Origin: Enterobacter hormaechei subsp. hoffmannii
GTDB taxonomy: Bacteria > Pseudomonadota > Gammaproteobacteria > Enterobacterales > Enterobacteriaceae
NCBI RefSeq assembly: GCF_001729745.1
Contig: NZ_CP017186.1
Span: 2,356,001 to 2,420,000, forward strand
Length of the DNA stretch: 64,000 nucleotides
Direction: 5' to 3'
A program made the position numbers and the translations under genes. The notes below the pieces were generated by a model. The model was not told where the DNA came from. It saw nothing but the letters and a program-made list of their open reading frames with translations, and searched no databases. Below are positions 4,242-35,175 of the stretch, piece after piece (position 1 is the stretch's first letter; each line of letters opens with the position of its first letter).

Positions 4242-4345
4242 GAGACTCTCTCTTTATCAGTTCCGGACACGCTACCGCCCGTCGCTGTTCCCTGTTATTC
4301 AGGATCCCAAAGCGCATCAGGTCGGGCAGGCAGATTGTGTTTTTC

Positions 4346-4381: not shown

Positions 4382-4406
4382 AAACTGCGGACAGGGCCCT
4401 GTCCGC
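4379..4406 (-). terminator. Rho-independent terminator after hcp, inside the T6SS operon
   Basis: The 20-bp perfect palindrome at 4387-4406 (stem GCGGACAG, tetraloop GGCC) is followed on the minus strand by AG and six T residues (4379-4384). It lies 8 bp after the hcp stop codon. Its likely effect is to make hcp transcripts more abundant than clpV-vgrG transcripts. Confidence 0.8.
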
Positions 4407-4413
4407 ATGCGAC

Positions 4414-4905: not shown

Positions 4906-4910
4906 GTTAA

Positions 4911-8640: not shown

Positions 8641-8655
8641 GCTTCCTGCCTTACG

Positions 8656-10191: not shown

Positions 10192-10231
10192 CAGCATATT
10201 CCCGGTTAATCCATTAAATTACACATGCCGC

Positions 10232-10723
10232 TTATTTCGGGGCCAGTGCACTCATTTCGTCGCGTAATTCCTGAGACAGCGCCGGGTCCTTAAGAATTTT
10301 CTCGAGTTCTTTTCTGAAAGTGGCGTTATCAAGAAGATTGGATTTGAGGTCGCGTAATAAATTACGCATGGCCAGCATGGCGCGGAGCTGGGGGATCTGG
10401 CGGGCAACCTGTTCAGGTTCGAAATCCTTAATATCGGAGAAATTCAGTTTTATACTTTCCTCCGAACCATCGACAGCCATGGTGTTAGGCACCGTCAGAT
10501 TAACCTCCGGGTTAAATTCCGAAAGTACGCTATTAAAGTTATTTTTGTTGACGTTGATTTTCTTCCTTTCGGACAATGGACGATTCTCTTTTCCATTACT
10601 GAAATCACCGACGGTGAGAAGTTTAAGCGGCAGTTCGACTTTCTTCTGCGCGCCGCCTGTATGCAGCGCCAGTTTTAAATTTATGCGTGCCTTGGGCACC
10701 TCATTCTGAAATGAATCGGCCAT
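10232..10723 (-). CDS. tssB: T6SS contractile sheath small subunit TssB (VipA)
   Basis: The 163-residue product begins MADSFQNEVPKARINLKL and has the family core LPLKLLTVGDFS near 30-41 and NFNSVLSEF near 62-70. TssB and TssC co-assemble into the contractile sheath. It is the first gene of the visible T6SS operon and has a good ribosome-binding site (AAGGGA, 5 nt before ATG). The 612 bp upstream are AT-rich and should hold the operon promoter, which I could not identify with confidence. Confidence 0.96.
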   Translation of the reverse strand: MADSFQNEVPKARINLKLALHTGGAQKKVELPLKLLTVGDFSNGKENRPLSERKKINVNKNNFNSVLSEFNPEVNLTVPNTMAVDGSEESIKLNFSDIKDFEPEQVARQIPQLRAMLAMRNLLRDLKSNLLDNATFRKELEKILKDPALSQELRDEMSALAPK

Positions 10724-17105: not shown

Positions 17106-18158
17106 TCACTGAGCAGGTTTTTTATTGAGCGTCTCTTTAAGCTGACCAATCAATTCGCGACGGAAATCCCCCAGCCGCGGCTTATCGCCATCGATCCAGG
17201 GGAGTGGACGACAAACCTCCATCGCTTTGATTCCTAAGCGTGCCGTCAGCAGACCGGCACCAATCCCCTGCGCCGCCCGGGCAGAGAGACGCGCCGCAAG
17301 ATCCTGCGACATCCAGTCCATCCCGACCTCCCGCACCAGTTCGCTTGCCCCGGCGAAGGCGATATTCAGCAACACCAGTTTGAACAGGCGCAGTCGGCTG
17401 TAATAGCCAAGCTCAATGCCATACAGTCTGGCGATGCGGTTGATCAGGCGCAGGTTGCGCCAGGCGATAAAGGCCATGTCCACCATCGCCAGCGGACTGA
17501 CGGCAATCATCAGGGTGGATTCCGCCGCCGAGCGGCTGATCTCACGACGAGCCTGCGCATCCAGTACCGGCTGAACAATGTGCGCATAGAGCGTGACCAC
17601 TTCCTGGTCATTCTGGGTTTCGTGGATCGCCGCATACCAGCGCTGAAGCGCCGGGTGAGAGTGATCTATCCCGGCCTGAGCCGCAAGCTTTTCACAAAAA
17701 GCACGCCCTTTTCCGGTGCCGTGACTGTGCAGCAGATCCCGCGCTTCATCGCGTTCGTGCGCACGCTGACGCAGACGCCAGAGGCGACGCCACTCGGTCA
17801 CGACCGAGCCGACGCCCGCACCAACGATCAACGCCCCGGCGGCGCATCCCCCCAGCGCTACCCAGTCCTGGGTTTGCCAGGCATTGACGCCCCACTGCAC
17901 GCCCTGACCAATTACGCTCACACCAAAAAGGGCTAACCCGGCGGTCACCATCTTACGCCACAGGCTGCGTTTCGGGCGCAGTGCCGCATCAACGACCGCT
18001 TCCGCCTGCCCCTCTTCAACCAACGGCTCCTCTGCCAGCACGGGAGCAAAGTTGTCGGCCTGCGGACCGGTGAAGGTTTGCGCTGTTCTAAACGCCTCAT
18101 GCGGGGACTGCTCAAGCTGGCCGGTAAAATCAATGCGGGGCTTTAACGGTTCCGTCAT
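17106..18158 (-). CDS. ycjF: Inner-membrane protein YcjF (UPF0283/DUF697 family)
   Basis: The 350-residue protein has two adjacent membrane helices near 68-90 and 98-120 and a hydrophobic C-terminal DUF697-type region. It is encoded with ycjX, overlapping it by 4 bp (ATGA). In E. coli the pair belongs to the heat-shock response; the molecular function is unknown. It lies 111 bp upstream of tyrR, which has its own operator there. Confidence 0.93.
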
Positions 18159-19552
18159 CGTAATTTATCTCCAATTAAAAACTCCAGCGCGGCATCCAGA
18201 CGGATATGCGGCAATGGCTGGTCAACGTTCATGCTCTGCGGACGGAAGTCTTCAAACTGAAAACCCTGGCTTTGCCAGAAAGCCTGGCCCGGCAGACGTG
18301 GGGGAACTTCGCCCGGATAGACCGTGAGCGGCTCACCGTCGCTGAGTCGGTTGCCCCGCAGGGCCGGAATTTTCTCGCCATTCACGTCAATCAACCCACT
18401 CTGCGTAGCCTGTACGGACGCCAGACCCAGACAATCCATACTAATCCCTTCGAACGCCGCGTTCTGCCAGGCATCCTGCACCAGCTGTTGCAGCAGGGAT
18501 ACCATGTTGGCGTGCTGATCGACCGTCACATGATCAGCTTTTGTGGCGGCAAACAGCAGCTTGTCGATGACCGGCGAGAATAAACGGCGAAACAGCGTAC
18601 GCTGGCCATAATGAAAACTTTGCATCAGCTGCGTCAGCGCCAGCCGCATATCATTGAACGCCTGCGGCCCGCTGTTGAGGGGTTGCAGGCAGTCCACCAG
18701 CACGATCTGGCGGTCAAAGCGTAAAAAATGATTTTTATAAAAACCCTTAACCACCTTCTCACAGTAATAATTGTATCGCTCGCGGAGCATACCGGCGTTG
18801 GTGGTCTTGTCTGCCTGCGCCAGCTTCGATTCGCCGATGCGGTCAACGTCCGGCCACGGGAAAAACTGTAGCGCGGGAGCACCGGCTAGATCTCCCGGCA
18901 GAACAAAACGGCCCGGCTGAATAAAATGCAGCCCCTCCTGCTTGCACTGATGCAGGTAATCCGTCCAGGCCTGGGCTATCACGGCCAGACGGTTTTCATC
19001 CGCCGGCGCCAGCGGATCCAGCCCTTCGCAAAGCTGGCGCCATTTGGTCGACCACTCTGCCCGCTGCCCCTGCAACAGACCGGTCATCTGCCGGGACCAG
19101 CTCAGGTAATCCTGCGCCAGCATCGGTAAATCGAGCAGCCATTCTCCCGGATAATCCACAATTTCGAGATACAGCGTGGACGTTTCTTTGAAGTGACGCA
19201 TCAGGGATTCATTCGAGCGAAAACGAAGCGCAAGGCGAATTTCGCTCACGCCACGCGTCGGGGTGGGCCAGGCGGGAGGCTCCCCGTATAACTGTGCCAG
19301 ACCTTCATCATAGGTGAAACGGGGGATGCCAAAATCACGTTGCGGTACGCGTTTTACGCCTAACAATCGCTCCTCGCGCACCGCGCTAAGCAGTGGCAGG
19401 CGCGCCCCAGCATGCAGGTTCAACAGCTGATTGACCATCGCCGTAATGAATGCCGTCTTACCGCTGCGGCTCAGCCCGGTAACGGCAAGACGCAGATGGC
19501 GATCAACGCCACGGTTCACCAGAGAATTGAATTCGTTTTTAAGTCGCTTCAT
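18155..19552 (-). CDS. ycjX: P-loop protein YcjX (DUF463, GTPase-like)
   Basis: The 465-residue protein starts [20 protein letters not shown] as in E. coli YcjX. A Walker A motif ([10 protein letters not shown]) lies at 26-35, and LVDCLQPL near 272 may serve as the Walker B region. Its family is nucleotide-binding with unknown physiological role, probably working with membrane protein YcjF. Upstream is a 155-bp gap shared with the divergent ycjW. Confidence 0.93.
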
Positions 19553-19707
19553 CGCCGTCCTTCATTGTCTGGAACCCTGAACAAAGTCACTTCAGAATAC
19601 AGTAAATTGGGGCAGATCGTTGATTATCAATTCTTAATTATTGCTATTGCCGTTTTCTCTCCAGTAAGATGGACGCAATTGCTGTCCGTCTGGAGTGAGT
19701 AAGGTGT

Positions 19708-20718
19708 ATGTCACCCACCATCTATGATATTGCCCGCGTTGCTGGCGTTTCGAAATCAACCGTGTCACGCGTTCTGAATAAACAAACGAATATTTCTCCT
19801 GAAGCGCGTGAAAAGGTGTTGAAGGCGATAGATGAGTTAAATTACCAACCTAATAAACTTGCCCGCGCACTCACCTCTTCTGGCTTCGACGCCATTATGG
19901 TTATTTCGACCCGCTCAACCAAGACCACTGCAGGAAATCCCTTTTTCTCAGATGTACTGCATGCCATTACGGCAAAAGCAGAAGAAGAAGGTTTTGATGT
20001 TATTTTACAAACGTCCAAAAGCAGTGAAGATGATCTGCAAAAATGCGTGGGTAAAATAAAGCAGAAGATGATCAAAGGCATCATCATGCTAAGCTCGCCG
20101 GCGAACGAGTCGTTTTTCTCGACGCTGGATGAATACGGTGTGCCCGTGGTCGTCATTGGTAAAGTGGAAGGAAATTACCAGAATATCTATTCTGTCGACA
20201 CGGATAATTTCCGCGACAGCGCCATATTAACAGACTCGTTTATCACGCATGGCCGCACCAAAATTGCCTGCCTGCATGCCCCGCTCGATTATCACGTCTC
20301 TATCGATCGCCTGGCGGGTTATAAATTCAGCCTTGAGAAACACGGCATCGAAATTAACCCGACCTGGGTTATCGATGGCGGCTATACCCATGAAAGCGCG
20401 CTTCAGGCGGCCTGCCAGCTACTCTCCTCAGACAACCCGCCCGATGCGGTTTTTGCGACTGATAGCATGAAATTGCTGAGTCTTTATCGTGCCGCGGATG
20501 CGCTAAATCTGGCGATCCCGGAACAGGTCGCAATGGCAGGATACAGCGACCCGATGCTATCTCTCATTTTAACCCCTGCACCAGGCGGCTTTGATATCCC
20601 CACGAAAAAGCTGGGCGAAGAGAGCTGCGATTTGTTGTTCAGGTGCATTGCGGATAAACCTGCGCCGCATAAGGTATTGGTTGAAACACATTTTTCAGAT
20701 GCAGCTTCGTTACGCTAA
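19708..20718 (+). CDS. ycjW: LacI-family regulator YcjW
   Basis: The 336-residue protein has an N-terminal LacI helix-turn-helix ([20 protein letters not shown], residues 5-24) and a periplasmic-binding-protein-like effector domain. It lies beside the ycj sugar operon and is its expected repressor. Two identical 14-bp operators with a central CG step (33449-33462 and 23507-23520) are its likely sites. The effector is not evident from sequence. AAGGTG precedes the ATG. It converges on ompG. Confidence 0.92.
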
Positions 20719-20720
20719 AA

Positions 20721-20742
20721 ACCAGGGGCAAACGCCCCTGGT
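20721..20742 (-). terminator. Terminator between ycjW and ompG
   Basis: ACCAGGGGC-AAAC-and complement forms a 9-bp stem. On the minus strand four Ts directly follow it, suiting ompG; on the plus strand it may also end ycjW transcripts. Confidence 0.8.
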
Positions 20743-20751
20743 ATAACGTCA

Positions 20752-21666
20752 TCAGAACGCGTAATTGACGCCGACACCCGCATAGTGGAAGCGGTCGCTC
20801 TCGCCTTCGTCATGATTTTCCCATTCGTAGGCATACTCGAGCGTCATGGAAAGGCCATTCGCAAAGTCATAAGCATAGAGCAGACCCAGTCGGTTGAAGT
20901 CATGCCCTTCACGAGTTGGATCGTCCTGCCAGTCCCAGTTTGACCAGCGATCGAGCCCCAGACGGGTGTAAGGTGTAAGCGTTGTCTGGCCTAATGAAAC
21001 AGGCAGGTAGGCACGAATCTCCTGGGTGGAGAATTCACCGTTATTACGTGAACTGTCCATATTGAAGCCACGCTCTAAATAGTAGTTAACTTTTGCAGAG
21101 ACGGTTTCGTTTATTGTCCAGGTAAATCCGGTTTCCGTTTCGACGCGGCTGTCAGAATAACCGGTTTTTCCCAGGTCATTCGCAAACTGGTACATGGCAA
21201 ACCAACCGCCAAAACGCCAGTCATCTGTTAATTTCACATCCCAGTCAGGCTGAATTTTATAGCGCTGCATATTAGCACTACCGTCTTTCGCACCGTGCTC
21301 ATCTTTAAAATGATATCCATAATTACGGAAACCGCCCGTAAGACCCAGCGTAAAATCCTCTGTGCCAATGAAGCGATACCGTAATTCAAATTCAGGACGA
21401 TCGAAATAGGTGCCGCGCGTCATGCTGCTGTAATCAACCGGGCCTTCCTGATACATCGCCAGTGAAATTGTCCACGCATCATACGTGGCGTTAAACCACA
21501 CGGAAGGTTCATATAATCCATCTTTATCGTCGCCCTGACCTTCGACGTTTTCAATTTCATACATGGCACCAATATTAAATTCCCACTGTTTGGTTGACTC
21601 TGTTGCTTGCGCGCAGCTTACCCCTGCGCACAGAACGAGCGCAGCACTTCTTAGTAGAGTACTCAT
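20752..21666 (-). CDS. ompG: Monomeric outer-membrane porin OmpG
   Basis: The 304-residue protein has a signal peptide (cleavage near ATA or AQA, residues 20-22) and alternating aromatic beta strands ending in an aromatic C-terminal residue (AGVGVNYAF), as in outer-membrane barrels. OmpG is a 14-strand monomeric porin for sugars. Its place beside ycjV and ycjW matches E. coli, so it probably supplies the outer-membrane route for the ycj substrate. A strong terminator separates it from ycjV, leaving under 30 bp for its own promoter. Confidence 0.93.
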   Translation of the reverse strand: MSTLLRSAALVLCAGVSCAQATESTKQWEFNIGAMYEIENVEGQGDDKDGLYEPSVWFNATYDAWTISLAMYQEGPVDYSSMTRGTYFDRPEFELRYRFIGTEDFTLGLTGGFRNYGYHFKDEHGAKDGSANMQRYKIQPDWDVKLTDDWRFGGWFAMYQFANDLGKTGYSDSRVETETGFTWTINETVSAKVNYYLERGFNMDSSRNNGEFSTQEIRAYLPVSLGQTTLTPYTRLGLDRWSNWDWQDDPTREGHDFNRLGLLYAYDFANGLSMTLEYAYEWENHDEGESDRFHYAGVGVNYAF

Positions 21667-21693
21667 TAAAATATTCCTTTATAATTAACATAC

Positions 21694-21720
21694 AAAAAAA
21701 CCGGAAACTTTCATTTCCGG
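21694..21720 (-). terminator. Strong terminator after ycjV, before ompG
   Basis: CCGGAAA-N6-TTTCCGG (21701-21720) is followed on the minus strand by seven Ts (21694-21700). It ends the ycjM-ycjV operon 13 bp after the ycjV stop. Confidence 0.92.
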
Positions 21721-21732
21721 CGAATACCTTTC

Positions 21733-22815
21733 TTATCTAATAGCTGCTTCAGTATCAGCATCGAAGAAATGGCACTTACTCATATCGAACTGGATGCCGA
21801 TATTATCTCCTGCAACGTAATCATCCGCCGCTCCCGCACGGACAACCAGTTCATGCCCGCCCACGTTGGCATAAAGCATAAATTCTGCCCCAGTCAGCTC
21901 AGCGACGCTGATCTTCGCCGCGATGTTTTCACCGCTGCGCTGTAGCGTGAGAATGTCTTCCGGACGGATCCCAAAGACGACCGCTTTGCGCTGGTAACCT
22001 TGCGCATTCAGTACGGCCAGCTTCTCCTCCGGGATCTCCAGACGCAGCGTTTCCGTCACGAAGTATCGGTCGTCGATCGCGCCACGAATGAAGTTCATCG
22101 CAGGTGAACCAATAAAGCCTGCAACGAACATATTCGCCGGCTCGTTGTAAACCTGCTTCGGCGCGCCCACCTGCTGGATGATGCCGTCTTTTAAAATCAC
22201 GATGCGGGTCGCCATGGTCATGGCTTCCGTCTGATCGTGCGTCACGTAAATCATGGTGGTATTGAGCTTCTGGTGCAGCTTGCTGATTTCAGCGCGCATC
22301 TGCACACGAAGCTTGGCATCAAGGTTTGACAGCGGTTCATCCATCAGGAAAACCCCGGCTTCACGCACTATCGCCCTGCCTAACGCCACGCGCTGACGCT
22401 GACCACCTGACAATGCGCCAGGTTTACGCTGGAGATAGTCGCGTAAACCCAGGATCTGGGCCGCCCAGCTAACACGTTCTTCGATGATGGAAGGTGCTAT
22501 TTTTTGCATCTTCAGACCAAACGCCATGTTGTCGTAGACCGTCATATGCGGATAGAGCGCATAGTTCTGGAAGACCATTGCGATATCACGGGACTTGGCG
22601 GGAACATCATTCATACAAACCCCGTCAATAATCAGTTCACCTGCGCTGATCTCCTCAAGGCCGGCAATCATTCGCAGCGTCGTGGATTTCCCACAGCCCG
22701 ATGGACCGACGAAGACGATAAATTCTTTATCTTCAATCTCGAGATTGAAATCCTTAACCACGTGGACCTGGTTATCATAGATTTTCTGAATGTGTTTCAG
22801 AGACAGTTGAGCCAT
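21733..22815 (-). CDS. ycjV: Sugar ABC transporter ATP-binding protein YcjV, intact
   Basis: The 360-residue protein is a MalK/UgpC-type ATPase. Walker A is GPSGCGKST (38-46), the signature is LSGGQRQR (about 135-142) and Walker B is VFLMDEPLSNLD. The C-terminal TOBE regulatory region (about 240-360) is complete. It should energise the YcjN-YcjO-YcjP importer. The E. coli K-12 copy is annotated as a pseudogene, as I recall; this copy shows no interruption. Confidence 0.95.
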   Translation of the reverse strand: MAQLSLKHIQKIYDNQVHVVKDFNLEIEDKEFIVFVGPSGCGKSTTLRMIAGLEEISAGELIIDGVCMNDVPAKSRDIAMVFQNYALYPHMTVYDNMAFGLKMQKIAPSIIEERVSWAAQILGLRDYLQRKPGALSGGQRQRVALGRAIVREAGVFLMDEPLSNLDAKLRVQMRAEISKLHQKLNTTMIYVTHDQTEAMTMATRIVILKDGIIQQVGAPKQVYNEPANMFVAGFIGSPAMNFIRGAIDDRYFVTETLRLEIPEEKLAVLNAQGYQRKAVVFGIRPEDILTLQRSGENIAAKISVAELTGAEFMLYANVGGHELVVRAGAADDYVAGDNIGIQFDMSKCHFFDADTEAAIR

Positions 22816-22828
22816 TATTAATTCCTTA

Positions 22829-23494
22829 TCAATACGCCCGGGATGCCCAGAACGCCGTCAGGCGTTCCCAGGTCAGTTCCTGCGTTGAATGAAGTTGTAA
22901 TCCCGCATGGTTCAGGCCAGGCCCAATCCCGACCGACAGCATTCCTGCGGCGTTGATCGCATCTACCCCTGCGGCGGCATCTTCGATACCAATGGCCTCT
23001 TCTGGACGCACGTTCAGTCCTTTACAGGCTGCAAGGAAGATCTCCGGGTCCGGCTTTGAGCGGCAAATGCGCGAAGCATCGGCGCAAAAATCGAAAGCCT
23101 GATGAATACCCAACGCGTGCAAAATCCCAGGGGCATTAAGCGATACGGATGCCAGCCCAATTTTGACCTTCGCGGCGCGAATATCCGCCAGCACGTCGCG
23201 AATACCCGGGAGCAGCGAATCCTGCGTCAGTGATGCCAGCGACTGGACGTAAAGCGCGTTTTTTTTCGTTGCCAGCGCCAGGCGCTGCTCGTCACTGAAC
23301 ATCCCCTCTTTCCCGCCATGTTTCAGAATGCGCTGGAGGGAGTCCATACGGCTTATTCCCTTCAGCTGTTCGTTAAATACTTCATCGAAGGTAATACCAA
23401 TCTCCTCCGCCACGGCGCGCCAGGCCAGAAAGTGAAGATGCGCGGTATCGGTGATCACCCCGTCCAGATCGAATACAACAGCGTTAAGCGTCAT
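22829..23494 (-). CDS. ycjU: Beta-phosphoglucomutase YcjU
   Basis: The 221-residue HAD-superfamily enzyme carries the nucleophile and acid/base pair in [12 protein letters not shown] (Asp9 and Asp11) and GLASVS as motif II. It converts beta-glucose 1-phosphate, the product of kojibiose phosphorylase YcjT, to glucose 6-phosphate. The ATG at 23494 is chosen for the strong site GGAGGGG just upstream. The first 11 bp overlap the ycjT 3' end. An operator-like sequence lies 13 bp upstream of the start codon. Confidence 0.95.
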
Positions 23495-25763
23495 GGCGCC
23501 CCTCCGTGGTAGCGGTCCCATTAACAGGTGCAAGAAAGTCCTTATACGCGCAGACTTTACGCCCTGATACATGCAGCGTTTTACCCCACAGCGTCAACGT
23601 GACAGGTGCGGTAGTCTCAATGGTTAACTGGTCATTTTCACAGTTAATGTGCATTGTTGCGTCCCGCCACCGCAGCGGGAAGGCGAGTTTCTGCCAGTGA
23701 ACAGGCAGTTTCGGTGAAAGATGCAGCTCCCCTTCGCTAATGTGCAGGCCAGCAAACCCCTGAATAGCGCCCAACCAGATCGCACCGGTGGCGGCAGCAT
23801 GAATACCGTCATCACTGCTGTGTGGGTCGTCCCCCAGGTCGATGGCGATACCGTCACGCCAGAAGGCATACGCCCCCTCGGTGTCACCGCAGCGTGCGAG
23901 CACAATGCCGTGAATCGCTTTACTCAGGGATGAATCATGAATCGTACGTGGCTCGTAGAACGCCAGATTGGCGGCACATTGCTGCGGCGTAAACCGTTCC
24001 GGCAGCAGGTAGTTAAGCATCACCACATCGGCCTGCTTCAGGATCTGCATCTCGTTCACTTCCGCGCGAGAGTAATCAAGCAAAATGGTTTGCTTACCCG
24101 CTTTGGCTTTATAGCGGCTCAGATCGATGGCAGGTTTTGCCATGAAGGTATCATCCTGCGGGATCACACCGTCTGCGTCGGCCTCTGGCAGCCACAGGCG
24201 CGCCAGGAACTTCCCGGCATTCTCCGTAAAACGCGCATCTTCACGGCCAAACATCGCCATAAACTGACGCGCGCAGGCAACGTTGTGCCAGGCCAGATAG
24301 TTGGTGTAGGCGTTGTTGTTGACATGCTCGGTGTATTCATCCGGTCCGATCACGTCATGGATCTCAAGACGACCATTGATTTCCGTCGCGCGTCCCATCC
24401 AGAACGAAGCGGTTTCTATCAGTAGCGTCAGCCCCTCATTGCGCATAAAGGCATCGTCGTGTGTTGCCTGCCAGTAAGCGACCACGGCCCAGGCGATATC
24501 AGCCACGATGTGATGTTCAGCGAGTGCGGAAGCCACCTTCTGGCGAACCCCGGTGCGGATGTTAATGGCCGCGAATTCTGGCGTCTCTTCCTGTCCGCTG
24601 GCCGCACTTTCCCACGGGAACAATGCACCCGGCCAACCGTTACGGCGCGCTTTTTCCCGTGCGCCTGCCAGATTAAGCCAGCGATAGCGTAGCAGGCTGC
24701 GGGCAATCTGCGGGCGGGTAAACAGATGGAACGGCAGCAGGAAAATTTCGGTATCCCAGAAGACGTGCCCCTTGTACCCCTCACCCGTCAGCCCTTTCGC
24801 CGCAATACTGCTTCGCTCATCATGAGCAGGCGTCATTGTCGTCAGATGCCAGACGGCGTAATCCAGCGCCAGCTGATCCTGTTGCTCTGTGGAAGTCACT
24901 TCCACACGTGCGTCGCGCCAGACATCTTTCCAGGCATACGCTGAGCTTTCAAGCAACGCCTCATAACCTCTTGCCGCACAGACTTTAAGATCGGCCAGCG
25001 CGTTGCGCGCGAATGACTCCTGCGACAGCGCTTTCTCGCTACGATGAGCCACCCAGACGATCTTCTCAAGCGTGACAGTGTCACCTCTAGCAATCGTCAG
25101 CGAATGATGCACGCTGAGACGGCGGTTTTTGGCGGTGAAACAGCTGTCGCTTTTCGTCGAGAGCTGGCAATACGCCGAAACCACAACCTCAGATGCACGG
25201 TCCTGCGTTTCATACACGCCCTGCATGTAGTGCTGGTCAAAGATCCTGACCGAGATTTCATCCAGATGCTGTCTGCCGCTGTTCGTTTGTGTCGCATCTA
25301 TGCCGGTTTTCAGCACGGCCTGAGCGTCGCCATCAAGCGGTGTGATCGAGAACTGCATTGCCACTAAGGGCAACTGGTCCAGCGAAACAAAACGACGGCT
25401 CTCCAGCCGATAACGTTTCCCGTCGGGTGCACGCCAGACAACGTTGCGATGCAGTTCGCCGTTAGCAAAGGCCAGCTCGCGCTGCCATTCAAGAATTTCG
25501 CCTGACAGGAGCGTGAAATTGACGCCATCAAGCTCAACATCAATACCGGTGATATCCGGCAGATTGACCAGCTCAGTAGTCTCGTTGCGACCCGCGCAAT
25601 GATAAAGCCCCGCGAGATACATGCCTCTGGTCTGCTGGGTGTAATCTTCTTCATGCGTAGCGCGAATGCCCATGTATCCATTCCCGCATGTCATGACAGA
25701 GGCATATTTGTTCAGGCTGTGAGGACAAAAGCCCGGATCGTTTAATACAGACACGTTCAGCAT
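23484..25763 (-). CDS. ycjT: Kojibiose phosphorylase YcjT (GH65)
   Basis: The 759-residue protein has the GH65 layout: an N-terminal beta-sandwich, then an (alpha/alpha)6 barrel and a short C-terminal sheet. Conserved blocks include [17 protein letters not shown] near 325-341 and [20 protein letters not shown] near 468-487, where the Glu of PDEYTEH is the expected general acid. E. coli YcjT phosphorolyses kojibiose to beta-glucose 1-phosphate and glucose. The start overlaps the ycjS end by 7 bp. Its last codons encode a site identical to the ycjM operator. Confidence 0.95.
23507..23520 (-). promoter_or_regulatory. Internal YcjW-type operator at the ycjT/ycjU junction
   Basis: TGGTAGCGGTCCCA here is identical over 14 bp to the site at the ycjM start. 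It has the imperfect palindrome and central CG typical of LacI-family operators (TGGNANCGNTNCCA). It lies within the last codons of ycjT and immediately before the ycjU ribosome-binding site. Confidence 0.6.
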
Positions 25764-26812
25764 AATGTCACGCTTTCCCCTGTTTCTGCTGATTCATAAA
25801 GCGCGGCAACAAGCTGTTGTATAACCAGACCCTGTTCTGCGTCAGCGATCATAACGTGCTCTCCCAGCACATGACGCACGAAGGCATCCATACTGCGCAG
25901 ATGGCGCTGATCGTCCGCCTCTTCACGATGGAAAAGGGTTTCTAAAACACCGGCTTCGTCGTTATAGATATGCGCCGGGAACAGCGTTGCGCCTGCCTTT
26001 TCACCGCAGAAAGAGACGTTCATGATGGACTGCTCGCGGATGTTAAGCGCAAAGGAGGTGTCCAGACGCAGAACGCCGCCGTTGCAGAATTCAATCGTGC
26101 CAAACAGGGCATCTTCCACGGTAAACTGCGTAGGATCCCATTCGCCAAACTGACCGTTGTGTTTCCGGTTCCCCAGTCTCTGGAAGCTGTGCGCGGTTAC
26201 CCGCTTCACAGCCGGGAAGCCCAACACGTACATCGCAGCATCCAGCATATGAATGCCGATATCGATAAGCGGCCCGCCACCCTGGAGCGATTTATTGGTG
26301 AAAACGCCCCACCCCGGCACACCGCAGCGACGCAGCGCCTGCGCGGAAGTGAAGTAAATTTCACCGAGTGTGCCGTTCATTACCGCATCGCGCAGGAGCT
26401 GGGTGTCCAGGGCAAAGCGATGATGAAAATCATACGCAAGGACTTTTCCTGCCTTGCGCGCCGCGATGCGCATCTGGTCGGCCTGTTCCGGCGTCATTGC
26501 CGGCGGCTTTTCACACATCACATGGCAACCCGCTTCGAGAGCCGCCATCACATGTTCAAAATGGAACCGGTTAGGCGAACAGACGCTCACCACATCCGGT
26601 TTTACTTTCTGCAACATCTCGTGAGCGTCCTGCCATGCCGTTGGAATGGCATAACGTTTCGCGAACGCCTGTGCCTGCTCAAGGCGGCTGTCCATGACAG
26701 CCACCATTTGAACATCACTGCGCGTGGCGTAATACGAGGCATGCACTTTGTCTGCAACCTGCCCGGCGCCAATGATGGCGACGCGCAGAGGCAAAGGTGT
26801 AGAAGCACTCAT
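25757..26812 (-). CDS. ycjS: D-glucoside 3-dehydrogenase YcjS (Gfo/Idh/MocA family)
   Basis: The 351-residue NAD-dependent oxidoreductase has an N-terminal Rossmann motif (VAIIGAGQVADK) and the family motif CEKPPA near 99. E. coli YcjS interconverts D-glucosides and 3-keto-D-glucosides, the last step of guloside-to-glucoside conversion by YcjQ, YcjR and YcjS. Possible ATGs lie at 26833, 26824 and 26812; the last gives exactly the recalled E. coli length. It follows ycjR closely and overlaps ycjT by 7 bp. Confidence 0.93.
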   Translation of the reverse strand: MSASTPLPLRVAIIGAGQVADKVHASYYATRSDVQMVAVMDSRLEQAQAFAKRYAIPTAWQDAHEMLQKVKPDVVSVCSPNRFHFEHVMAALEAGCHVMCEKPPAMTPEQADQMRIAARKAGKVLAYDFHHRFALDTQLLRDAVMNGTLGEIYFTSAQALRRCGVPGWGVFTNKSLQGGGPLIDIGIHMLDAAMYVLGFPAVKRVTAHSFQRLGNRKHNGQFGEWDPTQFTVEDALFGTIEFCNGGVLRLDTSFALNIREQSIMNVSFCGEKAGATLFPAHIYNDEAGVLETLFHREEADDQRHLRSMDAFVRHVLGEHVMIADAEQGLVIQQLVAALYESAETGESVTLC

Positions 26813-26826
26813 CACGCTCGTCATCC

Positions 26827-27615
26827 TTAGCATTCACGCAGGTAATTGAGTGAGTCCTGATAGGCTTGAGCCGGATCGTCGGCACGAACCCGGCACTCGT
26901 ACACCACATAACCCTGATAGTTATCAGCACGCAGCTGACCGAACAGGCTGGCGAAATCAAGGCTGCCGCTGCCCGGCTGATAGCGGTGGTTATCAGCAAT
27001 ATGCACATGACCCAGCAGATCGCGGTTGTGATGCAACGCTTCCGTCAGTGAGTCTTCTTCAATGTTCATGTGGTAGAAATCACCGATGATCTGCACGTGC
27101 TTCAGGCCGTTCTCTTCGATATAACGACGCGCGTCGGCCAGGGTGTTGATCATATGATCCTGATAGCGGTTCAGCGGCTCCAGGTAGACGGTAGTACCGG
27201 TGCGCGCTGCTACCTCATCCAGCCAGCGCAGGGAAGCGCTGACCGCTTTGCGATCGCCATCCAGGCTACGTGGCGAAGTCATTGGCGGCAGACGGAAGGT
27301 AAACATCCCCCAGGCAGCCGGGACGATAATCCCTTTGCCGCCCACTTCTGCCAGCGCTTCCAGAATGCGTTCAATCTGCTGGAGACCGTTCAGGCGGCGT
27401 TCTTCGATGAAATCCCCGATCCAGCCATCGTATCCGCCACACGCCGTCGTAACCGGCAGACCGGTGGCTTTGATAGCGGCTTTCACTTCGTCGAGATGTT
27501 CAACCAGCAGCCGGCCATCTATTTCGTAGCCATCAAATCCCATCGCTTTGATGTATTTGAATTTTTCCATGATAGTGGTCGGGAAAAAGGCCTAGTTTTG
27601 TGTTGCGATTTTCAT
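26827..27615 (-). pseudogene. ycjR: YcjR sugar epimerase with in-frame amber at codon 8
   Basis: The reading frame from the ATG at 27615 has AGGA upstream and encodes MKIATQN, then a TAG stop (27594-27592), then AFFPTTIMEKFKY and onward to 26827. E. coli YcjR reads MKIGTQNQAFFPENILEKF, so TAG replaces the CAG for Gln8. Without the stop the product would be 262 residues, exactly the E. coli length. The rest is intact, with TIM-barrel metal-site blocks such as VYLEPLNRY, IGDFYHMNIEED and HVHIADNHR. An internal ATG at 27570 could start a 247-residue form but has no ribosome-binding site and would lose the first beta strand. The enzyme acts as a 3-keto-glucoside/guloside 4-epimerase. It may be inactive, suppressed or a sequencing error. 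Confidence 0.85.
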
Positions 27616-27632
27616 GATTTGCTGTCCTTAGC

Positions 27633-28685
27633 TTAAAAAGTAACGCCCATTTTGATACTGAGTTCCGGGTGCTGATCGACATACTTCATGTAGCTTTCCG
27701 GGCTGGTGGTGAAGGTGACGACCGGGTCGATCAGATCTTCACAATTGAGATAACCGTTCATCAGCAATTCCCAGCAGGTCTCTTCAATACGCTTGCGACT
27801 CCAGCGTGGATAATCCGGGTTGGGTTCACTGCATGCGCGGGAGAAGACAATCTTCGCGTTGTTGAAGTGTGCTTCGCGGCCCAGGTTGAAGCCTGCCGCA
27901 AAAGGTTTGGCGAAAGCCACGTAAGAGATCGTGCCGCCGTAGGCGAGTCCGCGCAGCGCAGATTGCAGCGCATCTGCAAAGCCGCTGGTTTCGATGATCA
28001 CATCCGCGCCCTGCTTGCCGGTCAGTTTCTTAATTTCAAGACCGACATCGGTACCGATTGGGTTCAGGCAGTGGTCTGCACCGTGACGGCGGGCGATCTC
28101 ACAGCGATGTTCAATAGGATCGACACCAATAACCACTGACGCGCCAGCTTTTTTCGCCAGCTGAATCGCAATCTGGCCAATAGCGCCCAGCCCGACAACT
28201 ACAACGAAATCCCCTACGCGGACGTTAGCATCACGCACGCCGCTCATGGCGAACTGAGCCGGATCGTAACAAACGGCGTTTTTCCAGGATGCGCCCTGCG
28301 GCATTTTGCGCAGCTTATAGTTGTTCACCGCGTTGACGATGACCGTTTCCTGCAATGGACCGTAGCAGCAAACGCTGTCGCCGATCTGGTATTCCGTTAC
28401 GTCCGCACCACATTCGATGATGTCGCCGACGATCATGTTTCCCAGCTGGCATTTACCAAATTCGATGCCGCGTGCTGCCCCCTCTTCACGTGGGGTAAAC
28501 ATCTGCCACTCGGCGTTAAACTCTTCATCAATGAACGGGCTTGCCGCGCGGAAATCCACAACTTCGGTGCCGTGTTTCGGGGCGCCATAACGGGCACGAA
28601 TCTTCACTTCATGTGCTGCAACAGGACGATCTTCGTATTCCACCAGCGCCGCTACACGAGGCGCTGTCGCAACTAATTTTTTCAT
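27633..28685 (-). CDS. ycjQ: D-guloside 3-dehydrogenase YcjQ (zinc-type MDR family)
   Basis: The 350-residue medium-chain dehydrogenase has an N-terminal GroES-like catalytic domain and a Rossmann domain with VVGLGAIGQIAIQLAKKAG near 171. E. coli YcjQ oxidises D-gulosides at C3 with NAD. Its product is then epimerised by YcjR and reduced by YcjS. The gene ends 17 bp before the ycjR start. Length equals the E. coli protein. Confidence 0.94.
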   Translation of the reverse strand: MKKLVATAPRVAALVEYEDRPVAAHEVKIRARYGAPKHGTEVVDFRAASPFIDEEFNAEWQMFTPREEGAARGIEFGKCQLGNMIVGDIIECGADVTEYQIGDSVCCYGPLQETVIVNAVNNYKLRKMPQGASWKNAVCYDPAQFAMSGVRDANVRVGDFVVVVGLGAIGQIAIQLAKKAGASVVIGVDPIEHRCEIARRHGADHCLNPIGTDVGLEIKKLTGKQGADVIIETSGFADALQSALRGLAYGGTISYVAFAKPFAAGFNLGREAHFNNAKIVFSRACSEPNPDYPRWSRKRIEETCWELLMNGYLNCEDLIDPVVTFTTSPESYMKYVDQHPELSIKMGVTF

Positions 28686-28713
28686 GACTCACTCCTTGTT
28701 AAAATCGGCCGCC

Positions 28714-29556
28714 TCAGCCCTTTACGCCGCCGGCGGTCAAACCACTTTTAATAAAACGTTCAGACAGGGCATACATAATGACAACGGGCAGTGCGGTCAC
28801 AAGCGATGCCGCCATCATGCGACCCCAGATGTAATCTGGCGTACTGAAGAGCGTGTTCAGCCCCACCGGCAACGTGAAGTTGCTGGCGCTGGACAGGAAA
28901 ATGGAGGCGAACAGGTAGTCATTCCACGCCACCATGAAGCAGTAAACGAAGACTGACACCAGACCCGAGATCGCCAGCGGCACGGTGATGCGGAAGATGA
29001 TTTGCAGGCGGTTCAGGCCGTCCATCATCGCGGCTTCTTCTATCTCATCCGGGATAGTGTCGAAATAGCTGCGCAGCATAAAGACCGCAGTCGGCAACGT
29101 CTGCGTCACCATGGTGATGATCAGCGCCAGCTCGGTGTCATAAATGCCGAGCGCGGTGATGATTTTGAACAGCGGCACCACCAGCAGGATCCCGGAGAAC
29201 ATATAGACGGTGTAGAAGCTCGCATTGATCGTCGTGCGCCCTTTAAAGCGCAGTTTGGATAACGCATAAGCGCCCAGCGTACCGAGAAACACCGCAATGA
29301 CAGAGGAGGTCAGTGACACCACCATGCTGTTACGGAAATAATCCACAAACGGGAAAATCAGCGGGTTAAAGATGTCGATGTAGTGCTGTAACGTCCACTC
29401 CTGCGGCAGGATAGTCGGGTGCAGTGAGATCGCCTCTTTCGCGCTTTTGAACGATGTCATCAGCATCACAAAAAACGGAAACAGCGTGATAATCAGGAAT
29501 ACCGCCAGTCCCAGATAAAAACCGATACGGCCCAGAACGCGTTTATTTGTTGCCAT
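28714..29556 (-). CDS. ycjP: Sugar ABC transporter permease YcjP
   Basis: The 280-residue protein has six predicted membrane helices and the MalG-type cytoplasmic loop EEAAMMDGLNRLQIIFRI near 187-204, the ATPase docking site. It pairs with YcjO to form the channel. The start overlaps ycjO by 14 bp. Confidence 0.95.
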   Translation of the reverse strand: MATNKRVLGRIGFYLGLAVFLIITLFPFFVMLMTSFKSAKEAISLHPTILPQEWTLQHYIDIFNPLIFPFVDYFRNSMVVSLTSSVIAVFLGTLGAYALSKLRFKGRTTINASFYTVYMFSGILLVVPLFKIITALGIYDTELALIITMVTQTLPTAVFMLRSYFDTIPDEIEEAAMMDGLNRLQIIFRITVPLAISGLVSVFVYCFMVAWNDYLFASIFLSSASNFTLPVGLNTLFSTPDYIWGRMMAASLVTALPVVIMYALSERFIKSGLTAGGVKG

Positions 29557-30424
29557 TGAGGTTTACCCTTTTTCTGGTCAGCAGAATGACAGCGAATATG
29601 ATCACAAACAGCACAACGGAAATGGCGGCTGCTTTACCCAGGTCATTGAACGCAAAGGCGGTTTTGTAGAGATATACGCCCAGAATGTCGACCTTGGTGG
29701 TGAGCAGATAAACATCCGCAAACATGTAGAACATCCAGATGGTGCGCAGCGTGACCACCGTGGCCAGCACCGGCATGATGGCGGGCAACGTCACGATACG
29801 AAAACGCTGCCAGGCATTCGCCCCGTCCATCTCTGCCGCTTCGTACAAGGATTTATCAATGGTCTGTAGAATCGCGAGGAACGAGATAAAGGCATACGGG
29901 AAGTAACGCCAGATGGCGAACAGCACGACCAGGACAAAACTGCTGCCAGGGTTATCGAACCACAGCGGCGCCTGATCGTAGAGATGCAGCAGATCAACGC
30001 CAAGATAGTTCACAATTCCGTAGCCGTTGTTGAACATGTATTTCCAGGCAAATACCAGTGAAATAGACGGCGTCACATAGGACAGTATCACCAGTGAACG
30101 TGCCGTTTTCCGCATGCGGAATTCACGGTTAAAGAAGATCGCTACGGCCAGCCCCAGTCCGGTGCTGCCGATCACCACCAGCGCCGTATACCAGAACGTC
30201 ATCCACAGGGAGTGCCAGAACGCAGCATCGCCCAGGATGCGAATGTAGTTATCCAGACCGACGAACACCGCATCAATACGCGGATTCAGCGGTAAACGTA
30301 AAAAACTGATTTCAATGTTAGAAATCATTGGCCAGGCCACCAGGCCCCCCAGCAAAATCAGGCTGGGGGCCAACAGCAGCATGGCGAAAGGCATATCTGA
30401 ACGACCAGAAAACAACGTCTTCAT
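29543..30424 (-). CDS. ycjO: Sugar ABC transporter permease YcjO
   Basis: The 293-residue protein has six membrane helices and a MalF-type EAA loop (LYEAAEMDGANAWQRFRI, about 192-209). It is the partner permease of YcjP and lies 21 bp after ycjN. Confidence 0.95.
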   Translation of the reverse strand: MKTLFSGRSDMPFAMLLLAPSLILLGGLVAWPMISNIEISFLRLPLNPRIDAVFVGLDNYIRILGDAAFWHSLWMTFWYTALVVIGSTGLGLAVAIFFNREFRMRKTARSLVILSYVTPSISLVFAWKYMFNNGYGIVNYLGVDLLHLYDQAPLWFDNPGSSFVLVVLFAIWRYFPYAFISFLAILQTIDKSLYEAAEMDGANAWQRFRIVTLPAIMPVLATVVTLRTIWMFYMFADVYLLTTKVDILGVYLYKTAFAFNDLGKAAAISVVLFVIIFAVILLTRKRVNLNGNK

Positions 30425-30445
30425 AATTCCCTTCGCAAAGCGCTC

Positions 30446-31738
30446 CTATCGTTGTGATATCAGGTCAGTCAGTTTCTTCTGGCTGTTGCTTAACGTCGCA
30501 CTGAGATCTTTTTGTCCCACCGTCACGTTATGCACCATGGAACTGATAATGCCGGACCCGGTAACATCTCCCATGCGGGTAAAGTTCTTGTCGCCCACGG
30601 CACCAAACACCTGGACGTTCGGGAACTGCGCAATCAGCTCGTAAGGCAGTTGACCAAAGGCCTTGATAACGTCGTTGTTTTTCCAGGAATCAGTGCCCAC
30701 CACGAGTTTATTGACCGGTAGCGCGGCGCCCGGAGACATCATGACCCAATCAGAGGCGTTCTGAGCCTGCTCCATCCAGGTGACAAATTTCTCGGCGGCC
30801 TGCGTTTCCTCTTCGGTCTGGCCGGTAGTGATCGTCAAAGAAGTGATCATGCCGTACACGGCTGATGATTTTTCCGTCGGGACAACGAACCCCAGGTTGG
30901 CCGGATTGCCATCTTTGAAGACCGCGGGCAGGATATAGGTAGAGTAAACGGCCATAGGCGCAGAACCGTTCATGAAGGCGTCTTTGATCTCCATGACATC
31001 ATTCGAGCCCGGCATGGTGTTCGCGGCCAGTGCCCTATAAAACTCCAGCGCTTTCGACATCTCAGGGGTATCGATTTTCACGCTGCCGTTTGCATCAAAG
31101 ACGTTGGCCCCTCCTGACAAAGCAAATTGCGAGAAAGCCTGCTCCGTCATGACGCTTTCTGCGGTTGGAAGCGCGATACCGTAATGTTTTTTAGCCGGAT
31201 CGTTGAGCGCCTGACTGGCTTTCAGCAGTTGCTCCCAGTTGTGCGGCTCTTCAATACCCGCTGCCGCGAGCGCATCTTTGTGATACCAGACGCCGGACAG
31301 CCAGGCGCTAACCGGCACCCCCGTCCATGCGTTGCCATCTTCCGTGCGAACTACGCGTAAAATGCCGTCGTAAAATGTCTCCTCGCCCACCGCCTTGATG
31401 GCGCGGCCGATGGCGTCACGATCCAGTAGCTGCTCTTTATCCATGACTTTGGCGTAGTCATGGCTGATCTCAATCACCTCCGGCAGCGCACCGGTACGAG
31501 CCAGGGTAATTACCTTGGTGTTGTAGGCATCTTCTTCAACGGGTACCTGCTTCACCGTAATCGACGGGTTCTCTTTCTCGAATTTTTCAATCAATTTCGT
31601 GATAACGGCCTGACGCTCCTGTTCTACCGACGAGTGCATAAACTCAATGGTGACCTGAGATGCTTTATCGTCCTTACAGCCTGATAACAGGGCGCACGAA
31701 ACCAGTGCTGATAACAGCACAATTTTTGGCATTTTCAT
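30446..31738 (-). CDS. ycjN: Sugar ABC transporter substrate-binding lipoprotein YcjN
   Basis: The 430-residue protein has a lipoprotein signal peptide ending LLSGC with the lipidated cysteine at 21. Asp at +3 and +4 but Lys at +2 does not clearly indicate inner-membrane retention. The mature part is a family 1 extracellular solute-binding protein. Substrate is unknown; the operon suggests an oligosaccharide or glycoside such as kojibiose or a guloside. It lies 13 bp after ycjM. Confidence 0.94.
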   Translation of the reverse strand: MKMPKIVLLSALVSCALLSGCKDDKASQVTIEFMHSSVEQERQAVITKLIEKFEKENPSITVKQVPVEEDAYNTKVITLARTGALPEVIEISHDYAKVMDKEQLLDRDAIGRAIKAVGEETFYDGILRVVRTEDGNAWTGVPVSAWLSGVWYHKDALAAAGIEEPHNWEQLLKASQALNDPAKKHYGIALPTAESVMTEQAFSQFALSGGANVFDANGSVKIDTPEMSKALEFYRALAANTMPGSNDVMEIKDAFMNGSAPMAVYSTYILPAVFKDGNPANLGFVVPTEKSSAVYGMITSLTITTGQTEEETQAAEKFVTWMEQAQNASDWVMMSPGAALPVNKLVVGTDSWKNNDVIKAFGQLPYELIAQFPNVQVFGAVGDKNFTRMGDVTGSGIISSMVHNVTVGQKDLSATLSNSQKKLTDLISQR

Positions 31739-31751
31739 TTTAGGGTCCTTT

Positions 31752-33449
31752 TTAGTTTTCTTTAATCCACATTACCTGCCATGGATTGAGGATCAGCTCC
31801 GTACCGCTAATATCCTGTCCTGATAATAATTCCTTACCAGAAAGCGTTTGTTCATAAACGGTCTGCATTTTATTGCTAAAATTAAATAATGCTGTAATTC
31901 GCTCGCCATTTTCAGCAACACGAATAATTTTAAGAATTTGTTTACCCACTGCGTCGAAAGCAGCCTGACTATCCGGATGGAACGCCCTCTCGCCGCGACG
32001 AATAGCGATAAACTCACTCAAACGAGAATAAATTTGATAACGAATACTCTTCTTATTATTCAGTTCGCTATCAAGCTGCCCCGCCGTGTATTTTTTCCGG
32101 TTAATCGCGCGGTTATATCCGAGGCGTTCGACGCCTTCATAATCGTTCCGCGAACCAAGAATGCTCTGAATATAAACAGCCGGGACGCCTGGGAAACTTA
32201 ACAACACAGCATGCGCGAGGAGGAACCGTGCAATACGTTCCTCATCTGAACTGTCTTGTAAACTTAACGCATCAAGATAGGTGACATTAATTTCATAAGG
32301 GCTTCGCGTTCCGTCAGGATTATTTTTCCAGTTGACCAGCGCGCCTTCCTGCTGAAGATTTTCGACCAACGAGAGGATCTCTGATTCCGGAAGAATGCCG
32401 CGCAGCGGATTCAAACCGATACCATCATGCGAGGCCAGGAAATTAAACCATGTAGTGTGTGAAGAAGGCAGTGCCAGCGACCCCGCCCATTGGCAAAGTG
32501 CTTTCACATCCTGACGATGAACGGCATGCAGCACCAGCGGAGGTAAGGAAAACTGATAGACCATCTGGGCTTCGTTTTCACCATCACCGAAGTAAGAGAT
32601 GTTGTCTTTGTGCGGAACATTTGTCTCAGTAATGATCACCGTTCCAGGTGCCACGGCGTCCGTAATGGCGCGGAACAGCTGGATAAGGCAATGAGTTTGT
32701 TCCAGATGGATGCAGGTTGTTCCCGGGATTTTCCACATAAACCCGACCGCATCCAGACGGATATAACGCGCCCCTTCCATGAGGTAATGGAGCAGAACGT
32801 CAACCATTGCAATCAGCACCTGCGGCGAGGCGAAATTGAGATCGATCTGGTCATCGCTGAATGTAGTCCATAAATGACGAACGCTGCCATCATTAAGCGT
32901 AAACGGCGTCAACAGCGGTAGAGCGCGTGGGCGCGTCACCGCGGATAAATCGGTTTCCGGGTCGACAGAAATAAAGAAATCTTCATAACCAGGCTTCTGC
33001 GCCAGATAATTAGCAAACCATTCGCTTTTCGCTGACATATGATTGCAAACGAAATCAAACATTAAGCTGGCTGACTGTTTTAATTCCGCGACATCGCGCC
33101 AGTTTCCCGTTTCAGGTGCAACGGTATGATAATCAATAACGGAAAAACCATCATCTGATGACCACGGATAGAAAGGTAAAAGATGGACATGAGAAAAAGT
33201 ACGAGAAAGCCACTCATTATAGAACCGGGTAAATACCGGCAATGCTTTCTCCCCTTTCGCGGAGATCTGATCGGCATAGGTAATCAGAACAACATCTTTT
33301 TCATCCCAGCCTGACTTACGCTTCTCCGTAATATTAACCGCCGCCTGTTGAAGCTTAGTTAATAACACGTCAAGGTGTGCATCTGAAAATGATTCACCGT
33401 AAATATGATTGATAAGGTATTTAATTTTTGCGTTCACATTATTTTCCAT
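31752..33449 (-). CDS. ycjM: Glycoside phosphorylase YcjM (GH13_18, glucosylglycerate type)
   Basis: The 565-residue protein has the sucrose-phosphorylase-type GH13 barrel. YADQISAKGEKALP near 52 and HVHLLPFYPWSSDDGFSVID lie near the N-terminus, RLDAVGFMWK carries the nucleophile Asp, and IITETNVPH carries the acid/base Glu. E. coli YcjM is reported as a glucosylglycerate phosphorylase. The ATG at 33449 aligns with the family start but has no ribosome-binding site; a GTG four codons on is an alternative. A promoter and operator lie directly upstream, giving a leader of about 16 nt. Confidence 0.92.
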   Translation of the reverse strand: MENNVNAKIKYLINHIYGESFSDAHLDVLLTKLQQAAVNITEKRKSGWDEKDVVLITYADQISAKGEKALPVFTRFYNEWLSRTFSHVHLLPFYPWSSDDGFSVIDYHTVAPETGNWRDVAELKQSASLMFDFVCNHMSAKSEWFANYLAQKPGYEDFFISVDPETDLSAVTRPRALPLLTPFTLNDGSVRHLWTTFSDDQIDLNFASPQVLIAMVDVLLHYLMEGARYIRLDAVGFMWKIPGTTCIHLEQTHCLIQLFRAITDAVAPGTVIITETNVPHKDNISYFGDGENEAQMVYQFSLPPLVLHAVHRQDVKALCQWAGSLALPSSHTTWFNFLASHDGIGLNPLRGILPESEILSLVENLQQEGALVNWKNNPDGTRSPYEINVTYLDALSLQDSSDEERIARFLLAHAVLLSFPGVPAVYIQSILGSRNDYEGVERLGYNRAINRKKYTAGQLDSELNNKKSIRYQIYSRLSEFIAIRRGERAFHPDSQAAFDAVGKQILKIIRVAENGERITALFNFSNKMQTVYEQTLSGKELLSGQDISGTELILNPWQVMWIKEN

Positions 33450-33462
33450 GGTAGCGGTCCCA
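33449..33462 (-). promoter_or_regulatory. YcjW-type operator at the ycjM start
   Basis: TGGTAGCGGTCCCA fits a LacI-family operator (TGGNANCGNTNCCA) and is identical to the site at 23507-23520. It spans roughly +4 to +17 of the predicted transcript and touches the ycjM ATG, so a bound repressor would block promoter clearance. Confidence 0.7.
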
Positions 33463-33471
33463 CGGAGTGGC

Positions 33472-33500
33472 AATCTACTCCCATGAAAAATATCTGTCAA
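33472..33500 (-). promoter_or_regulatory. Sigma70 promoter of the ycjM-ycjV operon
   Basis: TTGACA (33500-33495), a 17-bp spacer and TAGATT (33477-33472) form a good sigma70 promoter on the minus strand. The start point would be near 33465, just before the operator. Confidence 0.7.
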
Positions 33501-33570
33501 CGGACCAGGGGGCTGAAAAAGGCATTCTCAAAGCAGCGCAATGCAGTAATGTGAGCTGCCGCAAAGAAAG

Positions 33571-33600
33571 AGAAAAAGCAGAGGGGGAATTCATGCCCTC
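33571..33600 (-). terminator. Probable terminator of the psp operon
   Basis: GAGGG (33581-33585) pairs with CCCTC (33596-33600). On the minus strand TGC and five Ts follow. It lies 34 bp after the pspD stop, where pspE stands in E. coli. Confidence 0.6.
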
Positions 33601-33633
33601 TCTCAGCGCGAGAAAGGGCTTATATGAGCGGGA

Positions 33634-33858
33634 TTAGCGTGAAAAGTAGCGACGTGAAACGCGTTTTGCCAGTTTTTGTAACAGCGGCTCCAGGGCGACC
33701 GCCAGCAACATTCTGACCGGCTTACGGGCAACAGACTTGATCGCCCAGCCCGCCACACCAGCCGGACCATAACGTAACGCCGTCATCAGAACCAGTTTAC
33801 CTGCGATTTTCAGGCCGGGTTTTACCTTCTGACCGGCCTGTTGCCAGTTTTGTTTCAT
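33634..33858 (-). CDS. pspD: Phage-shock protein PspD
   Basis: The 74-residue protein is basic at both ends with a hydrophobic, alanine-rich middle (about 20-58), consistent with a peripheral inner-membrane protein. It matches E. coli PspD closely. It follows pspC by 12 bp. The pspE rhodanese gene expected next is absent. Confidence 0.93.
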
Positions 33859-33870
33859 GTAAGTTCTCTC

Positions 33871-34230
33871 TTAAAGCTGACGGAAACGACTTCTCAGCGT
33901 AAAGGTATCGGAGGTGACATAACGTTCCATCTCGCGCAATCGCTTCTCCCCTGCGCTCAGCTGTTCATCCACCGCGTTAAGAAGATCGCTGCTGGTTGGC
34001 GTGTTTTCCGCATCCAGCTCACCTTCCGGCATCGGATCAAGTACAAACGACAGAATGATGTAAGCCACCAGTGTAATAAAGGCCAGGCCAAAGAAAATCG
34101 ACAATACGGTGACCACACGTACCAGTTTTACCGGGACATCCAGATAGTGTGCCAGCCCGGCGCAAACGCCCCGAACCATGCCCTGCTGCGGGATGCGCCA
34201 CAGTTTTTTATTCAGATTTAGTCCAGCCAT
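33871..34230 (-). CDS. pspC: Phage-shock protein PspC
   Basis: The 119-residue protein has an amphipathic N-terminal PspC domain (RGVCAGLAHYLDVP) and one membrane helix near 40-64. PspB and PspC sense envelope stress and draw PspA away from PspF. Its ATG shares one base with the pspB stop (TAATG). Confidence 0.96.
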   Translation of the reverse strand: MAGLNLNKKLWRIPQQGMVRGVCAGLAHYLDVPVKLVRVVTVLSIFFGLAFITLVAYIILSFVLDPMPEGELDAENTPTSSDLLNAVDEQLSAGEKRLREMERYVTSDTFTLRSRFRQL

Positions 34231-34454
34231 TAACGCTCCCTCCAGTTCGGGTGTTCCGCATCCAGGATGGCTTCCAGCGCCTGAATACGTTCGCGCATTT
34301 TGTTTGCCTCAGAAGAGAGCTGCGCCAGCCGCTGTTGCTCGCTTTGCGACAGCTCCCCGCGAGAAGAGCGGTTGCTGTAGTGCAGCCATAACCAGATGGG
34401 CAGAACAAACAGCACGAAAATTGTCAGGGGTATTGCCAGAAAAAGCGCGCTCAT
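34230..34454 (-). CDS. pspB: Phage-shock protein PspB
   Basis: The 74-residue protein has an N-terminal membrane helix (about 3-24) and a cytosolic coiled coil with leucine-rich spacing (about 36-66). It acts with PspC as the stress sensor. Confidence 0.96.
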   Translation of the reverse strand: MSALFLAIPLTIFVLFVLPIWLWLHYSNRSSRGELSQSEQQRLAQLSSEANKMRERIQALEAILDAEHPNWRER

Positions 34455-34503
34455 GTGTACTCCTTGTCTTGCGATGCGGCACGCTCAGGTGCCGCAGGAT
34501 TTA

Positions 34504-35175
<672 letters not shown>

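Follow-up and report, generated by a model that had tools for sequence, protein, structure and literature searches.

The question raised by this locus is whether an amber codon close to the start of ycjR marks a gene broken by mutation, a stop that the cell reads through or bypasses, or an error in the determined sequence. The window, that is, the whole stretch of 64,000 nucleotides analysed here, comes from the genome of Enterobacter hormaechei subsp. hoffmannii, which is 4.68 Mb in 2 contigs. The minus-strand frame of ycjR runs from 27615 to 26827, and its 789 bases make up 262 codons and the terminal stop. It reads MKIATQN, a stop, and then AFFPTTIMEKF onwards, with the TAG at 27594-27592 being the sole internal stop. 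The stop is a real feature of the assembly, and the TAG at codon 8, the length of 262 residues and the intact ycjQ and ycjS flanks described in a first-pass annotation of this DNA were all confirmed in the letters.

The identity of the gene was examined from the part of the frame that remains open. The 247 residues from codon 16 aligned end-to-end with residues 68-314 of PDB 6wn6 (phmmer, E 2.1e-145), an entry titled 3-keto-D-glucoside 4-epimerase whose source organism we take to be E. coli (YcjR). The same residues matched PF01261, the xylose-isomerase-like TIM barrel family. By its match to this characterised YcjR the frame belongs to the YcjR family; the other mark of the family, a full-length frame with the TQNQ-FFP segment and barrel strand 1, was not found because the frame stops at codon 8. 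The Escherichia YcjR N-terminus quoted in the first-pass annotation is present in one of the named loci (L025).

The features of the cluster are collected in Table 1. The ORF of ycjS spans 25757-26833, and a start at 26812 gives a product of 351 aa. The porin gene is presumably ompG-like, judged by position, and the names ycjP, ycjO and ycjN are likewise our assumption on the same grounds. No match to Rfam RNA elements was found at 18000-35000. At 26700-28800, there were no promoter-like sites (1.6 in shuffles) and one terminator-like site, lying on the opposite strand (2.2 in shuffles). At window position 27617, between ycjQ and ycjR, the nearest whole genome (G027) is one base shorter, and therefore its ycjR ORF reaches 22 codons further upstream than the usual start. 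For the counterparts of the ycj genes in E. coli, roles are given in PMC11543891.

Table 1. Features of the ycj cluster and of the altered site in ycjR (positions in the window).
Feature	Position	Strand	Description	Basis
ycjW	19708..20718	+	LacI-type regulator	family match
Porin gene	20752..21666	-	putative ompG-like porin, open	no family match
ycjV	21733..22815	-	ABC transporter ATPase, open, 360 aa	family match
ycjU	22829..23497	-	beta-phosphoglucomutase, open	TIGR01990, 261.5 bits (cut-off 189.4); start inferred
ycjT	23484..25763	-	glycoside hydrolase family 65 protein, open	family match
ycjS	25757..26812	-	Gfo/Idh/MocA dehydrogenase, open	family match; start inferred
ycjR	26827..27615	-	3-keto-D-glucoside/guloside 4-epimerase, AP_endonuc_2 TIM barrel, interrupted by a stop at codon 8	
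Downstream ATG	27568..27570	-	in-frame, ycjR codon 16; possible but poor restart, 247-aa product	
Dcm site	27591..27595	-	CTAGG in the window; CCAGG, a Dcm site, in G027, G001 and G030, the genomes closest to it	
Amber codon	27592..27594	-	TAG, ycjR codon 8; Gln codon in 95/95 distinct relatives	
ycjQ	27633..28685	-	zinc-dependent dehydrogenase, open, 350 aa	Pfam family match
ycjP, ycjO, ycjN	28714..31738	-	presumed ABC transporter parts, open	position
ycjM	31752..33500	-	alpha-amylase family, open	sucrose-phosphorylase-like below model cut-off

The relatives were used for finding out how codon 8 is read elsewhere. Among 22 named loci compared over about 6.7 kb, those of E. quasihormaechei (L002, 92.6% identical) and E. 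cloacae M-7 (L001, 92.1%) ranked highest, and the nearest whole genome, G027, was 95.4% identical over 200 kb aligned. The alignment of the window with G027 starts at 8620. At 1596-10723 on the minus strand, the window carries a run of genes that resembles a portion of a type VI secretion cluster and includes a ClpV-like ORF of 881 aa, as judged by eye from N-termini.

Codon 8 encodes Gln in all the 80 named ycjR loci that were kept from 149 found (68 CAG and 12 CAA), and it is CAG in all 26 whole-genome relatives that gave a match, where the ycjR frame is 262 codons throughout. As 11 of these 26 duplicate the ycjR sequence of a named locus, the two sets together hold 95 distinct sequences, mostly one genome per species, and Gln stands at codon 8 in every one of them. 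The stop is thus private to this genome among those relatives. E. coli copies of ycjR, located in 3,932 of 5,426 genomes, stand outside this count. Furthermore, T5, Q6, N7, Q8, F10, F11 and P12 are invariant across 24 aligned members of the YcjR family ranging from Enterobacter to Paenibacillus. A recoded amber codon is expected to be kept in relatives, and none of the 95 distinct relatives carries the stop; the case that the first-pass annotation had named as refuting its reading, sister strains all carrying TAG, was absent from this between-species comparison.

The possibility that useful YcjR is still made, either because a suppressor tRNA reads through the UAG or because translation restarts at the ATG at 27570, draws on the presence of this in-frame ATG 21 nt past the stop, from where a 247-codon ORF runs, and on the undecayed state of the remaining frame. 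We consider it highly improbable. The 82 tRNAs found in the genome (Rfam RF00005, read by ARAGORN) include none with a CUA, UUA or UCA anticodon, in a search that scored 150 of 173 first-look candidates and did not list tRNA-Sec, so that unusual tRNAs may escape it. No tRNA gene lies within the window. Amber suppression, which the first-pass annotation had proposed together with a check for suppressor tRNAs, therefore finds no tRNA with a CUA anticodon among those recovered.

Restart at 27570, proposed in the same place, fares no better. The best pairing with the anti-Shine-Dalgarno sequence ahead of this ATG is -2.4 kcal/mol at 19 nt, versus -5.7 kcal/mol at 8 nt ahead of the true start. Codon 16 encodes Met in 11 of the 26 whole-genome relatives and in 13 of the 80 named loci (the sets overlap), and a conserved alternative start at codon 16 was rejected on this distribution and on the weak Shine-Dalgarno pairing. 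In a good structural model of an intact relative (mean pLDDT 86.2, 79 over residues 1-10, pTM 0.88), barrel strand 1 is made up of residues 2-5 and is followed by a loop, residues 6-14, that carries most of the invariant segment. A product begun at codon 16 loses the invariant TQNQ-FFP residues along with this strand, and on the model the 247-aa protein should therefore not fold normally.

A backup for the broken gene was also looked for. The genome gave a single ycjQR match, i.e. no second copy of ycjR, and its seven PF01261 matches, ycjR included, contain no close paralogue: apart from ycjR itself, the best long alignment is 22% identical. A further proposal treats the stop as a conditional switch that is maintained, in which low-level read-through or re-initiation would let a trickle of YcjR through, and loss of the epimerase with both dehydrogenase genes still open would alter the product of the pathway, with 3-keto-guloside accumulating or being diverted; we regard this as even less probable than useful read-through or restart. 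We read the locus as a gene broken in an ordinary way, with no novel reading of the code.

The sequence around the stop was then compared with that of the nearest genomes. In G027, G001 and G030, a CCAGG site extends over ycjR codons 7 to 9; the base that differs is its inner C, the target of Dcm methylation, which reads T in the window. The genome encodes dcm (NF007772, 899.3 bits against a cut-off of 710) and the adjoining vsr (TIGR00632, 167.3 bits against a cut-off of 97.85). The two defining marks of a nonsense mutation at a Dcm site, an ancestral CCWGG with its inner C turned to T and a Dcm methylase in the genome, are thus both found here. According to PMC9520237, the inner C of CCWGG is the target of Dcm, and very-short-patch repair acts against its conversion to T by deamination; citing Cherry 2018, the same text gives for E. 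coli and Salmonella a C-to-T rate 8-fold above that of C residues elsewhere. In the genes examined, 19 further codons in 13 genes are one Dcm-type step away from amber, so the opportunity for such a mutation is common. As a separate observation, another open frame, 660 codons long, at about 3409679-3411550 of contig C1 of this genome (L177, L178) matches PF00145, a cytosine methylase family, in two pieces.

An excess of C-to-T changes at Dcm sites between related genomes would be a supporting sign of such a mutation and not a defining one; no excess was seen, and these changes are depleted instead. Of the 202 inner Dcm cytosines conserved in G027, G001 and G030, one became T in the window, namely that of ycjR, and the corresponding counts for those three genomes are 0/192, 0/192 and 0/216, respectively. 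Over the 200 kb aligned with G027, the Dcm C-to-T changes number 2/992 in this genome and 3/990 in G027, and between these two genomes C-to-T is rarer at Dcm sites than across all C/G (2.6-2.8%). Similarly, the synonymous change of CTG to TTG at CCTGG was found at 0/168 and 0/162 sites between sister genomes, as against 1.4-1.9% in CTG contexts with one shared flank and 2.9-3.0% in the remainder. The Dcm hotspot thus appears, from these alignments, to be invisible in long-term divergence between sister genomes, despite the short-term hotspot in print. Efficient very-short-patch repair, or selection on the remainder, may explain the depletion. The depletion fits a young allele, though it gives no direct support for one; since C-to-T changes at Dcm sites seldom persist, the T in ycjR would be young. 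The claim of a Dcm mutation depends on the context of the ycjR site and not on any excess.

These counts also bear on the accuracy of the sequence, because general miscalling at Dcm motifs would hit many Dcm sites. An isolated consensus error is a different matter: a lone Nanopore miscall at a Dcm-methylated CCWGG would look identical to the mutation. The amber codon of ycjR has its T where Dcm would methylate CCAGG, the Dcm motif is a known weak point in Nanopore base-calling (PMC6591954), and the assembly of 2 contigs suggests that long reads were probably used. Against such an error stand the lack of a systematic excess in the counts given above and the state of the second Dcm C-to-T site of this genome in the 200 kb alignment, where, judged by eye, the change leaves the amino acid unaltered in the frame that appears to be the coding one; the site also falls in further open frames, and the change is non-synonymous in one of them. 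On balance, we hold an isolated error to be unlikely, and it keeps more weight than read-through, restart or a switch. A systematic Nanopore artefact at Dcm sites was rejected, since 1/202 in the window and 2/992 over 200 kb leave no excess for it to explain. Of the base-calling error suggested in the first-pass annotation, the systematic form thus falls away, and the isolated event stays as a rival.

A wider comparison of ORFs with G027 over 264 kb also speaks against an error. When the ORFs of G027 were sought in this genome, 13 of 155 looked broken, as did 11 of 156 in the reverse direction, and general decay of the assembly was not seen. Among the 13 flagged ORFs of G027, one is ycjR, two look start-extended when their N-termini are inspected by eye, and ten were scanned against Pfam; in four of the ten, the domain begins past the stop or indel, as in frames extended upstream, and the six without a domain are in our judgement non-coding frames. 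This Pfam scan was confined to these ten, all of them flagged in the one direction. In addition, no insertion private to the window versus all three relatives (G027, G001 and G030) was found, in a count confined to insertions.

The remaining length of ycjR was checked for signs of age. The pN/pS of ycjR versus G027 is 0.066, which falls inside the range of 0.000-0.113 spanned by the cluster's 11 other genes, and the copies in G027, G001 and G030, the three nearest, are equal in length to that of the window. Besides codon 8, YcjR of the window departs from the consensus of these three at residues 40 and 226, both of which are variable in the family. By these comparisons, ycjR appears to be without decay beyond the stop. 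Taken with the private stop and the Dcm motif, this undecayed state makes a recent nonsense mutation, one of the readings offered in the first-pass annotation, the best supported of them. We consider it probable that ycjR carries a young nonsense mutation at a Dcm site and that its loss of function removes the epimerase step.

The course of such a mutation can be set out as follows. Dcm would have methylated the inner cytosine of the CCAGG site, and the 5-methylcytosine would have been deaminated to T; the mismatch would have evaded very-short-patch repair and then been replicated, turning the Gln codon into UAG. Ribosomes would halt after seven residues of YcjR. As no suppressor tRNA was found and no good restart is available, essentially no YcjR would be made, and the step that links the dehydrogenases YcjQ and YcjS would be lost. 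This epimerase step is most likely missing. Expression of ycjS and of the genes downstream may also fall through polarity or lost translational coupling, and reduced ycjS expression through lost coupling is possible.

The loss could in principle have been selected rather than incidental, i.e. an adaptive shutdown of YcjR in this lineage. The stop comes very early, and the remaining genes of the cluster are open. Furthermore, ycjQR found no match in nine of 35 same-genus relatives (G005, G011, G016, G020, G023, G028, G031, G033 and G035, two of them under 90% complete), so that loss seems tolerated in the genus and the locus seems dispensable there. These features have to be set against a single mutation in a single genome, no parallel truncation, and intact ycjR in all 26 of the whole-genome relatives that bear the gene, and adaptive shutdown is to our mind the least probable of the explanations considered. 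Across the genus, the ycjQR locus seems to come and go.

If the young Dcm-site mutation is real, the strain should not convert D-gulosides to D-glucosides through the YcjQ-R-S route, and the proper annotation of ycjR would be a pseudogene, not a 247-aa protein. One and the same CCAGG motif is prone both to mutation and to Nanopore miscalls; a private amber in such a motif therefore needs read support before further use.

Comparison with known systems places this case among familiar ones. In a survey of Salmonella truncation mutations (PMC9241588), which reports 1,136 of 3,368 core genes with one in at least one analysed serovar, the mutations resemble that of ycjR in being premature stops without a frameshift in an otherwise intact gene; that survey spans 214 genomes, whereas the ycjR case is one gene in one genome. 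The ycjR of the window has its family and its place in the operon in common with E. coli YcjR (PDB 6wn6). Unlike the E. coli protein, the window copy halts at codon 8, and a full-length product is not expected from it. In the lacI gene of E. coli, changes of CCAGG to CTAGG at Dcm sites are amber hotspots, the C-to-T change arising from deaminated 5-methylcytosine. The lacI hotspots come from a mutation assay, unlike the event in ycjR, which we infer by comparison in one genome; the two share the base change, the methylated motif and the codon that results, and dcm and vsr are present here.
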